Assembly (NCBI RefSeq): GCF_008017535.1
Contig: NZ_VRUA01000024.1
Coordinates: forward strand, 1 to 49,670
From: Ottowia flava
GTDB taxonomy: Bacteria > Pseudomonadota > Gammaproteobacteria > Burkholderiales > Burkholderiaceae_C
DNA: 49,670 bases
Direction of reading: 5' to 3'
In this document: positions 43,382 to 47,317 of the stretch, in pieces
Layout: every line of letters starts with the position of its first letter
How positions within the stretch are numbered: position 1 is the first letter of the stretch
Program-made: the position numbers and the translations under genes
The notes under the pieces: model-generated
Databases searched by the model: none
The model's input: the letters and a program-made list of their open reading frames with translations, nothing else
Told to the model about the DNA's origin: nothing

Positions 43382-44329
43382 ATGGGAATCAGCCCTTACC
43401 TGAAGATTATTGGCCGCGGCAGCGAAGGCGCGCGGGCCCTCTCGCGCGAACACGCCACCGACCTGATGGGACAAATCCTGGACGGTCATTGCACCGACCT
43501 GGAAATCGGCGCGTTCTGTGTTGCCATGCGCATCAAGGGCGAAACGCCCGAGGAGATGGCCGGCTTTCTCGACGCCGTGGGCGAGCGCATGGACCACCTG
43601 CCCGGCAGCGAACGTCCCGTGGTCGTGCTGCCCAGCTACAACGGGGCACGTAAGCTGCCGTTGCTGACACCGTTGTTGGGCCTGCTCCTCGCGCGAAAAG
43701 GCTTACCAGTGCTAATTCACGGCACGCCTACCGAGGATGGGCGCGTCAGCTCGCAGGATGCGCTGGCCGTTGTGGGCTTCGCGCCACAACCTACCGACCA
43801 CTCCATCTGCCCCGGCCGTGTCCATTTCGTCAACACCGAAAGCCTGCTGCCCGGTCTGAAGCGCCTGCTGGACGTGCGCCGCAGCATCGGCCTGCGCAAC
43901 AGCGCGCACAGCCTGGTCAAGCTGATGAACCCGGTGGCCGGCCCCGCCCTGATCGTGGGCAGCTACACCCATCCAGAATACGCCCAGTCCATGGCCGCCA
44001 CGTTCGAATTGATGGGCAGTAACGCCATGCTGCTGCGCGGCACCGAAGGCGAGCCTGTGGCCGACCCGCGCCGCACGCCACGCATGGATGTGTTCCTTGG
44101 CGGGCAAGCGCACCTGGTCGAGGAGGCGCGCGGCGGCCCGCTCGACCACCTGCCCTCGCTGCCCACCCGGATCGACCCGATCTCCACCGCCACCTACATG
44201 CGCGCCGCGCTAGAAGGGCTGATTCCACTGCCCGAATCCCTCATCATCCAGGCCGATCACATCCTGCGTGCCTGCAAGGCGATCGAAGCTTCCGGCGATC
44301 CTTCGGTGCTAGCACCCCTCACCGCATGA
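43382..44329 (+). CDS. ybiB: YbiB family DNA-binding protein, TrpD2-like
   Basis: This 315-residue protein has the anthranilate-phosphoribosyltransferase fold. An N-terminal helical domain covers about 1-70 (SREHATDLMGQILDGHCTDL, then RIKGETPEEMAGFLDAVGER). An alpha/beta domain contains the glycine-poor loop SYNGARKLPLLTP in place of the catalytic TrpD loop. E. coli YbiB is a sequence-independent DNA-binding protein linked to the DNA-damage response. The start overlaps no upstream gene; the stop overlaps cobA by 4 bp, so both are coupled. Confidence 0.9.
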   Translation: MGISPYLKIIGRGSEGARALSREHATDLMGQILDGHCTDLEIGAFCVAMRIKGETPEEMAGFLDAVGERMDHLPGSERPVVVLPSYNGARKLPLLTPLLGLLLARKGLPVLIHGTPTEDGRVSSQDALAVVGFAPQPTDHSICPGRVHFVNTESLLPGLKRLLDVRRSIGLRNSAHSLVKLMNPVAGPALIVGSYTHPEYAQSMAATFELMGSNAMLLRGTEGEPVADPRRTPRMDVFLGGQAHLVEEARGGPLDHLPSLPTRIDPISTATYMRAALEGLIPLPESLIIQADHILRACKAIEASGDPSVLAPLTA

Positions 44330-45108
44330 CCGACAAGCCCTCTTCCCCCACCCCTGGCCGCATCACACTGGTGGGCGCTGGCCCGGGTGATCCCGAGTTG
44401 CTCACGCTGAAGGCGGTGCGGGCGATCCAGCGCGCCAGCGTGATCCTGGTCGACGACCTGGTCAGCGACGCCATCCTGGCCCACGCCAACCCCGACGCAC
44501 GCATCACCTATGTGGGCAAACGCGGCGGCTGCAAGAGCACGCCCCAGGCGACCATCGAGCAGCTCATGCTCGAAGCCGTGCGCGCGGGCGAAGACGTGGT
44601 GCGCCTCAAGGGCGGCGACCCGTTCATCTTCGGCCGGGGCGGGGAAGAGGTTGAAAGCCTGCGCGCCGCCGGCATCGAACCGATCGTCGTGAACGGCATC
44701 ACGGCCGGCCTCGCCGCCCTGACCAGCCTGGGCGCGCCGCTGACACACCGCGAACACGCGCAAGGCGTGGTCTTCGTCACCGGCCATCCGCAGAAGAACG
44801 GCCCCGGCGTGGACTGGGCGCGCTTGGCCGCGTCGGCCAGCGACTTGCGCCTGACCCTGGTGATCTACATGGGAATCAGCAGCGCCCCGCGCATCCAGGC
44901 CGGCCTGCTGCAAGGCCTGCCCGCCGACACCCCCGTGGCCGTGATCGAACGCGCCACCCTGCCCGCGCAGCGCCAGTGCCTGACGACGCTGGGCGAGCTG
45001 GTGCACGACCTGGCCAACAGCGGGCTGGGCAGCCCAGCGATTGTGGTGGTGGGGAATGTGGTGTTGGGGGTGAAGGCGGCGTTGCGGGAATTGGCCGCGG
45101 CGGCCTGA
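44326..45108 (+). CDS. cobA: uroporphyrinogen-III C-methyltransferase
   Basis: This 260-residue SAM-dependent enzyme converts uroporphyrinogen III to precorrin-2 for siroheme and cobalamin. Motifs are GAGPGDPELLTLKA (17-30), VGKRGGCKSTPQA (63-75) and RLKGGDPFIFGRGGEEVE (93-110). It is a stand-alone SUMT without the CysG oxidase/ferrochelatase part. It overlaps ybiB by 4 bp. In many beta-proteobacteria this pair lies by nitrite or sulfite reductase genes; here none is visible in the window. Confidence 0.95.
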   Translation: MTDKPSSPTPGRITLVGAGPGDPELLTLKAVRAIQRASVILVDDLVSDAILAHANPDARITYVGKRGGCKSTPQATIEQLMLEAVRAGEDVVRLKGGDPFIFGRGGEEVESLRAAGIEPIVVNGITAGLAALTSLGAPLTHREHAQGVVFVTGHPQKNGPGVDWARLAASASDLRLTLVIYMGISSAPRIQAGLLQGLPADTPVAVIERATLPAQRQCLTTLGELVHDLANSGLGSPAIVVVGNVVLGVKAALRELAAAA

Positions 45109-45154: not shown

Positions 45155-45167
45155 AGGTTTAACGAGA

Positions 45168-45222
45168 AATCAGGCGCTGGCCCCAAGGTGATCAGCGCGG
45201 ACAGCTATTGAATTTGTAGCTT
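45168..45222 (-). repeat. dispersed element, copy 12
   Basis: The plus strand contains AAATCAGGCGCTGGCCCCAA, then ATCAGCGCGGACAGCTATTG, matching the reverse complement of the element. A weaker reversed copy may follow directly (AATTTGTAGCTTTCTGTCGC, 45211-45230), which would make an inverted pair. Confidence 0.7.
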
Positions 45223-45260
45223 TCTGTCGCTGCGTGCTCGTTGGCCGCTAGTGTGTGAAC

Positions 45261-45900
45261 GACCTTGAGAGGCCGGGAAGTGCGCCCGGCGGCGCACCTT
45301 CTTTTCTTGACTCGCCAAGAAAAGAAGGCAAAAGAAGGCGACCCCACTGGCCGTGTCCCCTGCGCTTCGCTGCGGGACAACCTGCGATGCTCGATCGAGC
45401 GGTGGCGCTGCAGAACTCGCTTCGCGCCATTGGCGCTTCGCTCAGACAACTGCAGCGAATCAGAGCACGCAGCGCGGGCATCCTTCGGTGCCCGCGCCCA
45501 CCGCCCGCTCTGCGCTTCTCGGCACGTCCAGAGGGGAATGAAGACGATCCGGGCCATCGCTGCGCTCGGCCCTGGATTCGCGGCCGAGCGCAGCGATGGC
45601 CCGTGTGGCTGTTCAACTCCCCTTGAGGCTGCGCCTGCGGCGCGGTTCTGGCGGGGTGGCGGCTGCACCGAAGGATGCAGTCGCTTCGTGAACTGACTGG
45701 CCGCGGCTGTCTGAACGGAGCGCTCGAAGAGCGCGCAGTGAGTTCTGCGGCCCACCCCGTCAGAAGCGCGACGCAGGTTTGCCCCGCTGCGCAGCAGCGG
45801 GGTCGCAGACGTGGGGTCGCCTTTTCTTTGCCTACTTTCTTTTGGCGAAGCAAAAGAAAGTGGGTCGGCCGCCGGGCCGAAACCCGGCCTCCCAGCGTCG
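45261..45900. repeat. giant imperfect palindrome (~640 bp), gene-free
   Basis: The two halves of this stretch are imperfect reverse complements centred at about 45576. A perfect 21-bp inverted repeat (45551-45571 with 45582-45602) sits at the centre around a 10-bp loop. Outward, matched pairs recur: CATCCTTCGGTG hairpins at 45474-45495 and 45661-45682, GGCGACCCC at about 45338 with GGGGTCGCC at about 45813, T-rich hairpins at 45298-45327 and 45834-45862, and GAGGCCGGG-like ends. Several long open frames cross it in all directions, but they are compositional and not conserved-looking. It lies within the 916-bp gap between cobA and the flavoprotein gene. Transcripts of either strand would fold into a hairpin of about 310 bp. 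Confidence 0.85.
45298..45327 (+). repeat. perfect 12-bp hairpin in the left arm of the palindrome
   Basis: CTTCTTTTCTTG (45298-45309) pairs perfectly with CAAGAAAAGAAG (45316-45327) around ACTCGC. A related hairpin, with one bulge, lies in the right arm at 45834-45862. Their matching positions support the arm-to-arm symmetry. Confidence 0.85.
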
Positions 45901-45942
45901 ATCAGCAGCAACCGCCCCACAAGCACGCGGCGCAAGAACTAC

Positions 45943-45996
45943 ACATTCCATAGCTCCCCGCGCAACCTGCTGTAGGGCCAGCGCCCGTTTCTTCAT
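45943..45996 (+). repeat. dispersed element, copy 13
   Basis: ACATTCCATAGCTCCCCGCG, then CAACCTGCTGTAGGGCCAGC form a near-consensus copy. It ends about 28 bp before the GTG start of the flavoprotein gene and lies just outside the giant palindrome. Confidence 0.85.
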
Positions 45997-46024
45997 ACAA
46001 CCCCACATCCCCCACAATCCCCGG

Positions 46025-47317
46025 GTGAGCACTTCACCCTCCCCCTTCGACGCCATCATCCTCGGCGCCGGCGCCGCCGGTCTGTTCTGCGCGGCGCAGG
46101 CCGGCCAGCGCGGCTTGCGTGTGCTCGTCATCGACCATTACGAGCGCGTCGCGGAGAAAGTGCGCATCTCCGGCGGTGGGCGCGCCAACTTCACCAACCG
46201 CGACCTGGACCCGGCGGCGCCGCACAAACACTTTCTGGGCAACAACCCGCAGTTCTGCCGGTCGGCGCTGGCGCGCTTCACGCCGGCCGACATCACCGCG
46301 CTGCTGGACCGGCACGGCGTCGCCTGGCATGAGAAACACAAGGGCCAGCTGTTTTGCGACCGCTCGGCCGGCGACTTGATCAACGTTCTGCTGGCCGAAT
46401 GCGAGGCCGCGCCGGCTGCTGGCGGTGCCGTCACGCGCTGGCAGCCGTGCCGTGTCCGCGGCGTGCAATTTCAAGCCAAAGAGACCGCCAGCCCTACGGG
46501 AGATTGCGCTGGCAGCTACCTTGTTGATAGCGACCAAGGTGCCGCCGCCGCACCGGCCTTGGTCATCGCCACCGGCGGTTTGTCCATCCCCAAGATCGGC
46601 GCCAGCGACCTGGGCTTGCGGCTGGCCAAACAGTTCGGCCACACGCTGGTCGACACCCGCCCCGGCCTGGTGCCGCTGACGTTTGACGGCGCGGCCTGGG
46701 CGCCGTACGCGCAGTTGGCCGGGCTGGCGCTGCCGGTGGAGATCAGCACGGGCGACAAGAAAACGCGCATGGCCTTCACCGAAGACCTGCTGTTCACCCA
46801 CCGCGGGCTCTCGGGGCCGGCGGTGCTGCAGATTTCCAGCTACTGGCGGCCGGGCACGCCGATCCGCATCAACCTGGTGCCGGGCGTCGACGTGGCAGCG
46901 GCGCTGCTGGCGGCCAAGGCGCGCTCGCGCAAGCTGATCGCCAACGAACTCACGCAGTGGCTGCCCACCCGCCTGGCCGAAGCCTGGGCCGCCTTGGACT
47001 CCGCCTGGCAGCGCCCGGTGAACGAGGCCAGCGACAAGGCGCTGACGCAGCTGGCCGAGCGCCTGTCGCGCTGGGAGCTGACGCCGACCGGCACCGAGGG
47101 CTATGCCAAGGCCGAGGTCACCGTGGGCGGCGTGGACACGCGCAGGCTGTCGTCGCAGACGATGGCCTCGCGCACGCAGCCGGGCCTGTATTTCATTGGC
47201 GAGGTGGTGGACGTGACCGGCTGGCTGGGCGGTTACAACTTCCAGTGGGCCTGGGCCAGCGCGCGCGCCTGTGCCGAGGCGCTGGCGACGCAGGCGGTGC
47301 AGCAGCGGCCGGCCTGA
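46025..47317 (+). CDS. NAD(P)/FAD-dependent oxidoreductase, BaiN/HI0933-like
   Basis: This 430-residue flavoprotein has a Rossmann FAD-binding N-terminus (DAIILGAGAAGLFCAAQAG) and the family signature VRISGGGRANFTNRD (about residues 42-56). It also has ATGGLSIPKIGASDLG and a C-terminal VDVTGWLGGYNFQWAWASAR. The family includes BaiN and predicted flavoproteins of unsettled reaction. No ATG precedes the conserved start, so GTG at 46025 is used. An in-frame copy of the dispersed element at 46466-46530 encodes about 20 residues (FQAKETASPTGDCAGS and on) in a surface-loop-like position before the FAD-binding strand. Confidence 0.88.
   Translation: MSTSPSPFDAIILGAGAAGLFCAAQAGQRGLRVLVIDHYERVAEKVRISGGGRANFTNRDLDPAAPHKHFLGNNPQFCRSALARFTPADITALLDRHGVAWHEKHKGQLFCDRSAGDLINVLLAECEAAPAAGGAVTRWQPCRVRGVQFQAKETASPTGDCAGSYLVDSDQGAAAAPALVIATGGLSIPKIGASDLGLRLAKQFGHTLVDTRPGLVPLTFDGAAWAPYAQLAGLALPVEISTGDKKTRMAFTEDLLFTHRGLSGPAVLQISSYWRPGTPIRINLVPGVDVAAALLAAKARSRKLIANELTQWLPTRLAEAWAALDSAWQRPVNEASDKALTQLAERLSRWELTPTGTEGYAKAEVTVGGVDTRRLSSQTMASRTQPGLYFIGEVVDVTGWLGGYNFQWAWASARACAEALATQAVQQRPA
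46466..46530 (-). repeat. dispersed element, copy 14, inside a coding sequence
   Basis: The plus strand reads AATTTCAAGCCAAAGAGACC, then GCCAGCCCTACGGGAGATTG, then CGCTGGCAGCTACCTTG, matching the reverse complement of the element over its length. The frame of the flavoprotein gene is not broken by it. Confidence 0.8.

Follow-up and report, generated by a model that had tools for sequence, protein, structure and literature searches.

Between a cobA-like gene and a flavoprotein gene of Ottowia flava lies a palindrome of about 650 nucleotides. The locus raises the question of what kind of element this is, and whether its structure is put to use as RNA or as DNA. The window (the whole stretch of DNA analysed) comprises the first 49,670 nucleotides of contig NZ_VRUA01000024.1.

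The palindrome and its two units

The palindrome core (45256-45905) aligns with its own reverse complement over essentially its full span, with a score of 271 against a mean of 55 and a maximum of 80 in 200 dinucleotide shuffles. This bears out the original prediction of a giant palindrome at 45261-45900, and the diagonal symmetry on which it depended is present. Weaker symmetry reaches about 45156-46002, the outermost segments (45156-45183 and 45975-46002) agreeing at 75%. The centre is a perfect 22-bp inverted repeat (45550-45571/45582-45603, with a gap of 10 nt), for which 21 bp had been given. The hairpins expected at equal distances from the centre are found: one pair at 45297-45328 and 45831-45864, and the other, around 45484 and 45671, within a 66-nt inverted repeat that is 76% complementary. 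Since the two arms of the window copy (locus L048) are ~72% alike, its transcript would not be a perfect hairpin.

Two diverged, non-coding units of ~300 nt, A and B, make up the palindrome as an inverted pair. The suggestion of two head-to-head copies of one repeat unit was right, as the unit occurs elsewhere both solo and in inverted pairs. The features are given here with their evidence in brackets.

45256-45905, no strand: element core, inverted pair of units A and B (self-reverse-complement alignment; 10 near-full-length genomic copies)
45271-45575, minus: unit A, whose structured strand reads outward (leftward) from the centre (homology; strand from mismatch asymmetry)
45582-45877, plus: unit B, whose structured strand reads outward (rightward) (homology; strand from mismatch asymmetry)
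45550-45603, no strand: central inverted repeat, the inner ends of A and B (perfect 22-bp arms)
45281-45296, minus: HP1 hairpin of unit A (sequence letters; covariation helix 1)
45297-45328, minus: P2 T-rich hairpin of unit A (sequence letters; covariation helix 2)
45329-45338, minus: linker of unit A, mirroring the P2 purine arm, (2,4) against (4,2); predicted third strand (mirror count)
45347-45531, minus: core of unit A (covariation, mismatch asymmetry, sequence letters)
45347-45355/45523-45531, minus: P3 of the unit A core (covariation)
45393-45405/45498-45510, minus: P5 of the unit A core (covariation)
45406-45413/45450-45457, minus: P6 of the unit A core (covariation)
45474-45480/45489-45495, minus: P7 of the unit A core (covariation)
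45821-45830, plus: linker of unit B, pyrimidine on the plus strand, mirroring P2, (4,3) against (3,4); predicted third strand (mirror count)
45831-45864, plus: P2 T-rich hairpin of unit B (inverted-repeat search; sequence letters)
45865-45880, plus: HP1 hairpin of unit B (sequence letters)
45156-45250, plus: outer short repeat and spacer, left (inverted-repeat search; short repeat also solo in the genome)
45911-46002, minus: outer short repeat and spacer, right, inverted (inverted-repeat search)
44326-45108, plus: upstream gene, cobA-like, so named in the original prediction (ORF list)
46025-47317, plus: downstream flavoprotein gene, which we take to be baiN (ORF list)

The outer short repeat is ~60 bp long with the core AGCTATTGAATTTGTAG, and borders the element in inverted orientation at 45156-45250 and 45911-46002. 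It also stands solo at about 159, 16711, 18541, 27751, 34961 and 48575, spaced at about 7-8 kb along the window as judged by eye on a short match to the core.

Open frames of 247 and 201 aa span the palindrome on the minus strand. Across the 10 genomic copies none of the six frames is stop-free throughout, and variable columns lack codon periodicity (66/198, 58/201 and 58/199 by codon position). A protein-coding palindrome is therefore rejected: conservation of a crossing frame at the protein level, named in advance as the finding that would matter here, was not seen among these copies, and the non-coding reading stands. On the minus strand one or more frames stay free of stops in every copy, as may happen in a GC-rich palindrome. 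No Rfam 15 family reaches its gathering score in the element, and relaxed matches, all far below gathering, include nothing convincing. A phage origin found no match among 50,697 phage records; viral contigs gave two exact-motif stretches, one apparently the hairpin and linker alone. Six of 72,556 plasmid records match, and in four of these six the match covers just 6-7% of the query; Comamonas has a full pair and Variovorax two half pieces. On a Variovorax plasmid a HigB/regulator pair adjoins the element (L094 2480-3709), and on a Pasteurella plasmid dapF and a DUF484 gene flank an inverted pair of this hairpin-linker type (by eye).

Copies, distribution and insertion

Ten near-full-length copies, that of the window among them, are present in the O. 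flava genome (4.12 Mb, 53 contigs). The remaining nine have 85-94% identity, and each covers at least positions 88-650 of the 681-position query. Once the copies are co-oriented the arms can be told apart, the left one being A and the right one B (in L009 the A end is truncated). A search of 60 genomes, O. flava included, matched 28, and among same-genus relatives the element is found in 18/28 and absent from 10/28. What relatives share is half of the palindrome, a ~300-nt unit that occurs solo or in inverted pairs separated by about 10 to 370 bp. By similarity, an A-like unit is paired with a B-like one in all nine O. flava pairs with both arms usable and in 11/13 pairs of relatives, the exceptions (L029, L087) being near ties. 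By the letters of P3, GTG is paired with GCG in 13/13 pairs of relatives, but the A arms of L003 and L008 carry GCG. At locus L035 the two units are both A-like and stand in direct rather than inverted order. In three relatives, one of another genus (L024, L025, L029), a pair lies apparently at the same site between two RND efflux permease-like genes (by eye).

Matches extend well beyond the genus. A covariance model of the core (R1) finds matches at E<=1e-6 in 13/300 Burkholderiales genomes (O. flava included) with the same divergent pair geometry, and misses some members of the order that the DNA search matches over short stretches (G039, G042, G049). An exact-motif scan of named genomes yields at least 120 stretches, 80 of which are listed. 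Among the matches listed are Polaromonas, Variovorax, Acidovorax, Thiobacillus, Dechloromonas, Azonexus, Silvimonas, Vogesella, Methylomonas and uncultured Thiotrichaceae, with exact hairpin-linker matches in Comamonadaceae, Thiobacillus, Dechloromonas, Neisseriales and Methylomonas. In 82 loci among the matches listed, R1 finds 76 places at E<=0.1, strong in Comamonadaceae and weak or none outside. Downstream of the motif the core strings AACTC, CCTGCG and CTCGGC are found in 98, 97 and 85 of 112 units, counts that have no control. Evidence for P3 beyond the family is moderate: a perfect arm of at least 7 nt occurs in 51/112 units, against 19% with the bodies of other units. The resemblance to motifs of other Burkholderiales, noted in the original prediction, holds in both the genome searches and the exact-motif scan. 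As judged from sequence, units are spread through many beta- and gamma-proteobacteria, and their folded shape appears to have been kept by evolution.

The gap between cobA and baiN allows a view of insertion. The baiN gene was found in 16/29 genomes of the genus: the element lies between cobA and baiN in two (the window genome, G000, and G011), the two genes adjoin without it in eight relatives, and six have no cobA within the fetched flank. These junctions fit a gain in the G000/G011 lineage, with loss elsewhere as the alternative. Of the hallmarks of a MITE, inverted ends are present, and no target-site duplication was read at the cobA-baiN site. A Y1_Tnp domain occurs in 15/19 carriers and 6/10 non-carriers of the genus, and none of the seven Y1_Tnp loci examined, of 12 fetched, has a unit beside the gene. 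With neither clear tracking nor a neighbouring unit at these seven genes, no RAYT could be linked to the element as its mobiliser. A transposon with cargo was rejected: wide spacers of 0.9-2.4 kb, present in 4/15 stretches, hold what look like ordinary genes from the ORF list only. One of them has, by eye, a HigBA-like toxin-antitoxin pair between two divergent units (L145 2388-3655).

A covarying fold and a mirrored linker

An RNAalifold consensus on the plain alignment was poor, so the fold was set from single folds, which suggested HP1, P2, and a P3 enclosing P4 to P7, and was then counted. The covariation set comprises 55 units below 92% identity, drawn from 74 distinct units, and 56 named pairs. 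These pairs are formed in 91.6% of cells, and the covariation score is 0.410, against 0.121 when shuffled (a control that takes no account of relatedness among units) and at most 0.088 with slid partners. Because the fold was derived from the same sequences, the slid control favours it on cells paired; the stronger evidence is that both sides change in 38/56 pairs, the long-range P3, P5 and P6 included. P4 is weakly supported, being 71% paired with no double change. Sequence comparison gives good support to a conserved, covarying multi-branched fold for each unit.

Mismatches reveal which strand is conserved. On the inward strand A-C mismatches outnumber G-T by 93 to 21 (cells that are not independent, which makes their binomial values too small), with 35:10 in A rows (GTGT at the P3 end) and 58:11 in the other (B) rows. 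At the base of P2 the ratio is 46:1 in 110 sites among the matches listed in the scan of named genomes, and 36 other sites give 12:5, so that all sets point the same way. Inward A-C mismatches are wobbles on the complementary strand, and the conserved single strand thus reads outward in both arms. The outward strand also folds better, in 63/74 units with RNA parameters and in 68/74 with DNA parameters. For the structured RNA originally suggested, covariation and strand asymmetry support the structure; that the unit works as RNA is what we infer.

At each outer end P2 is joined by an A-rich linker, and the two follow a mirror rule: a purine arm A(m)GA(n) goes with a linker A(n)GA(m). A pattern scan allowing all combinations found 133 sites, of which 87 + 43 are mirrored, none direct and three other. 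Among 212 sites in the loci (hairpins with perfect arms and a 4-nt gap), 186 are mirrored, none direct, 19 symmetric and thus uninformative, and seven other. Within O. flava the rule is kept in all 15 informative units of 18 readable. It holds in the registers (4,3)/(3,4), (3,4)/(4,3), (2,4)/(4,2), (2,5)/(5,2), (4,2)/(2,4) and (2,3)/(3,2). A third strand requires such symmetry: in the outward strand, the U-rich linker would lie parallel to the A-rich arm, with U.A-U and C+.G-C triples predicted. P2 and its linker thus follow the sequence rule for an intramolecular triple helix, and a triple helix of the two is predicted. That the linker changes with the hairpin, with not one direct repeat in 212 sites, makes the rule a candidate evolutionary signature of the third strand. 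Together with the covarying core and the strand preference, it makes the choice between RNA and DNA directly testable.

Orientation, function and related repeats

Units prefer convergent gene gaps. Among 52 sites with both flanks called by a simple ORF score (two more lacked a flank), 22 are convergent, 28 co-directional and two divergent. The 32 solo units of three complete relatives (G003, G014, G023) comprise 17 in convergent gaps, nine co-directional with the structured strand, four against it and two in divergent gaps. Compared with background gaps of 100 bp or more drawn from 60 sampled regions, convergent gaps are enriched (17/32 against 79/517, Fisher p 2e-6) and divergent ones depleted (2/32 against 117/517, Fisher p 0.03), the unit-bearing gaps being larger, so that the control is not size-matched.

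The units may work as RNA: a transcribed arm would yield a structured RNA with a predicted triple helix near its 3' end. We put this forward tentatively; covariation, strand asymmetry, outward folding, the mirror rule and the convergent-gap preference of solo units speak for it. A transcript from either neighbouring gene would carry the far arm in productive orientation, so that an inverted pair could cap transcripts from both sides. The far arm would fold into the P3-P7 core and then, near the RNA 3' end, into a U.A-U triple-helix hairpin of P2 and linker, which might define or protect that end. For cobA in the window, unit B is where read-through would end. As a non-autonomous element the repeat would spread, or would once have spread, solo units being single or decayed forms. 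If so, its function in many beta- and gamma-proteobacteria is perhaps to shape how RNA messages end. That the units make up an undescribed structured-RNA family of these bacteria, in which a U.A-U triple helix by the 3' end would be the counterpart of ENE-type stability elements and A+B pairs would cap both sides, is a wider proposal and a somewhat doubtful one. Several points weigh against a role as RNA. The 10 nt between the arms leave little room for an outward promoter of the element's own, so any RNA would come from read-through; template-switch swaps of hairpin arms could mimic covariation in local hairpins; and the structured strand of solo units opposes the replication fork in three genomes, which is not predicted. 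By analogy, the BoxC/PIT motifs would also count against a role at RNA ends: earlier studies summarised in PMC4666352 saw no terminator activity in them.

Selfish DNA and DNA-level effects are the serious alternatives. As selfish DNA only, the unit would be a non-autonomous REPIN- or MITE-like repeat, and a transposase encoded elsewhere would recognise its hairpins in single-stranded DNA, the fold being kept for transposition and not for the host. The dispersed copies, the eight empty cobA-baiN junctions, the strong replication orientation in some genomes and the occurrence of inverted pairs and singles as in REPINs (PMC3116915) are in its favour, yet no target duplication was read, the Y1 transposase domain does not clearly track the carriers and none of the seven genes lies beside a unit, and units are about ten times the length of a REP; we regard it as unlikely. 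Less likely again is a role at the DNA level, in which a cruciform, a triplex or a fork-pausing structure would affect replication, recombination or genome stability. Such a role has been proposed for BoxC/TMECO, which share with the units their block order and, for most unit pairs by similarity, the inverted A+B pairing (PMC4666352). The structured strand opposes the fork in 31/32 solo units of G003 (14/14), G014 (8/8) and G023 (9/10), while 552/1081 called genes run with it, and G299 (2/2) agrees; but the bias is weak or absent in G252 (8/13), G011 (2/4) and G128 (2/3, a cluster of three units left out). Moreover, pairs contain both orientations, and in the biased genomes the better-folding strand is on the leading-strand template, not where single-stranded DNA is expected. 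The total of 45/54 (43/51 without G128; G032 has a pair only) is a hand tally with ter taken opposite dnaA and pairs left out, in which a 'solo' unit may have a sub-threshold partner; by GC skew the origin is clear in G003 and noisy in G023 and G014. The bias may also be survivorship, if copies with the better-folding strand on the lagging-strand template would be deleted more often. The strict orientation in three genomes poses a puzzle of its own. As for the mirror rule, it might reflect avoidance of mispairing with no triple helix at all, since a direct-repeat linker would compete for the T-rich arm and a mirrored one cannot, by sequence logic, pair with it perfectly. Many linkers would then be allowed, yet run lengths are exact mirrors in several registers and 7/212 sites depart, which makes this explanation highly improbable.

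Among known repeats, REPs are 20-40 nt long and carry a tag; the units, at ~300 nt, are about ten times longer, and no RAYT link was found at the seven Y1_Tnp genes examined. ENE/MALAT1-type elements are eukaryotic and viral and differ in topology from the units, and no membership is claimed; the likeness to these 3' RNA triple helices is one of working only, a U-rich strand being set against an A-rich one beside the RNA 3' end. With the REP/BIME/REPIN class the units share dispersed, intergenic, palindromic copies, solo or in inverted pairs (PMC3116915). The Betaproteobacterial repeat element (BRE) of Bordetella is likewise an intergenic repeat of Betaproteobacteria, Comamonadaceae included, with at least one transcribed locus; at ~90 bp and often in direct tandem it differs in size and arrangement (PMC3110155).

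BoxC/PIT/TMECO is the closest known system. According to PMC4666352, these motifs are intergenic and widespread in proteobacteria, as units are, and consist of a pyrimidine arm, a purine arm and a purine third strand, a block order (class II; its complement reads as class IV) that the units share through the mirror rule, with the triplex predicted. All five BoxC inverted pairs of E. coli K-12 join one motif of type A to one of type B, and an action on replication, recombination or genome stability has been proposed in E. coli (PMC4666352). The same source gives BoxC a G/C-rich consensus of 34-37 nt, CCCTCNCCC...GGGNGAGGG...GGGNGAGGG, without attached core or strand bias, whereas the units have an A/T-rich CT-run/GA-run motif and a covarying mirror rule, are joined to a ~250-nt covarying core and, in some genomes, show a strand bias. 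The open literature searched, to which the original PIT papers do not belong, holds no description of an A/T-rich ~300-nt triplex repeat, although the ITxF database may list one. For BoxC-type repeats in vitro evidence of the triplex is known, and an evolutionary signature of the third strand was not found in the literature consulted. BoxC-like G/C-rich triplex motifs also occur in spacers between units or beside them (L094, L031, L087 and L035; by eye), and some of those within unit spacers are themselves inverted pairs, giving inverted pairs nested in inverted pairs.
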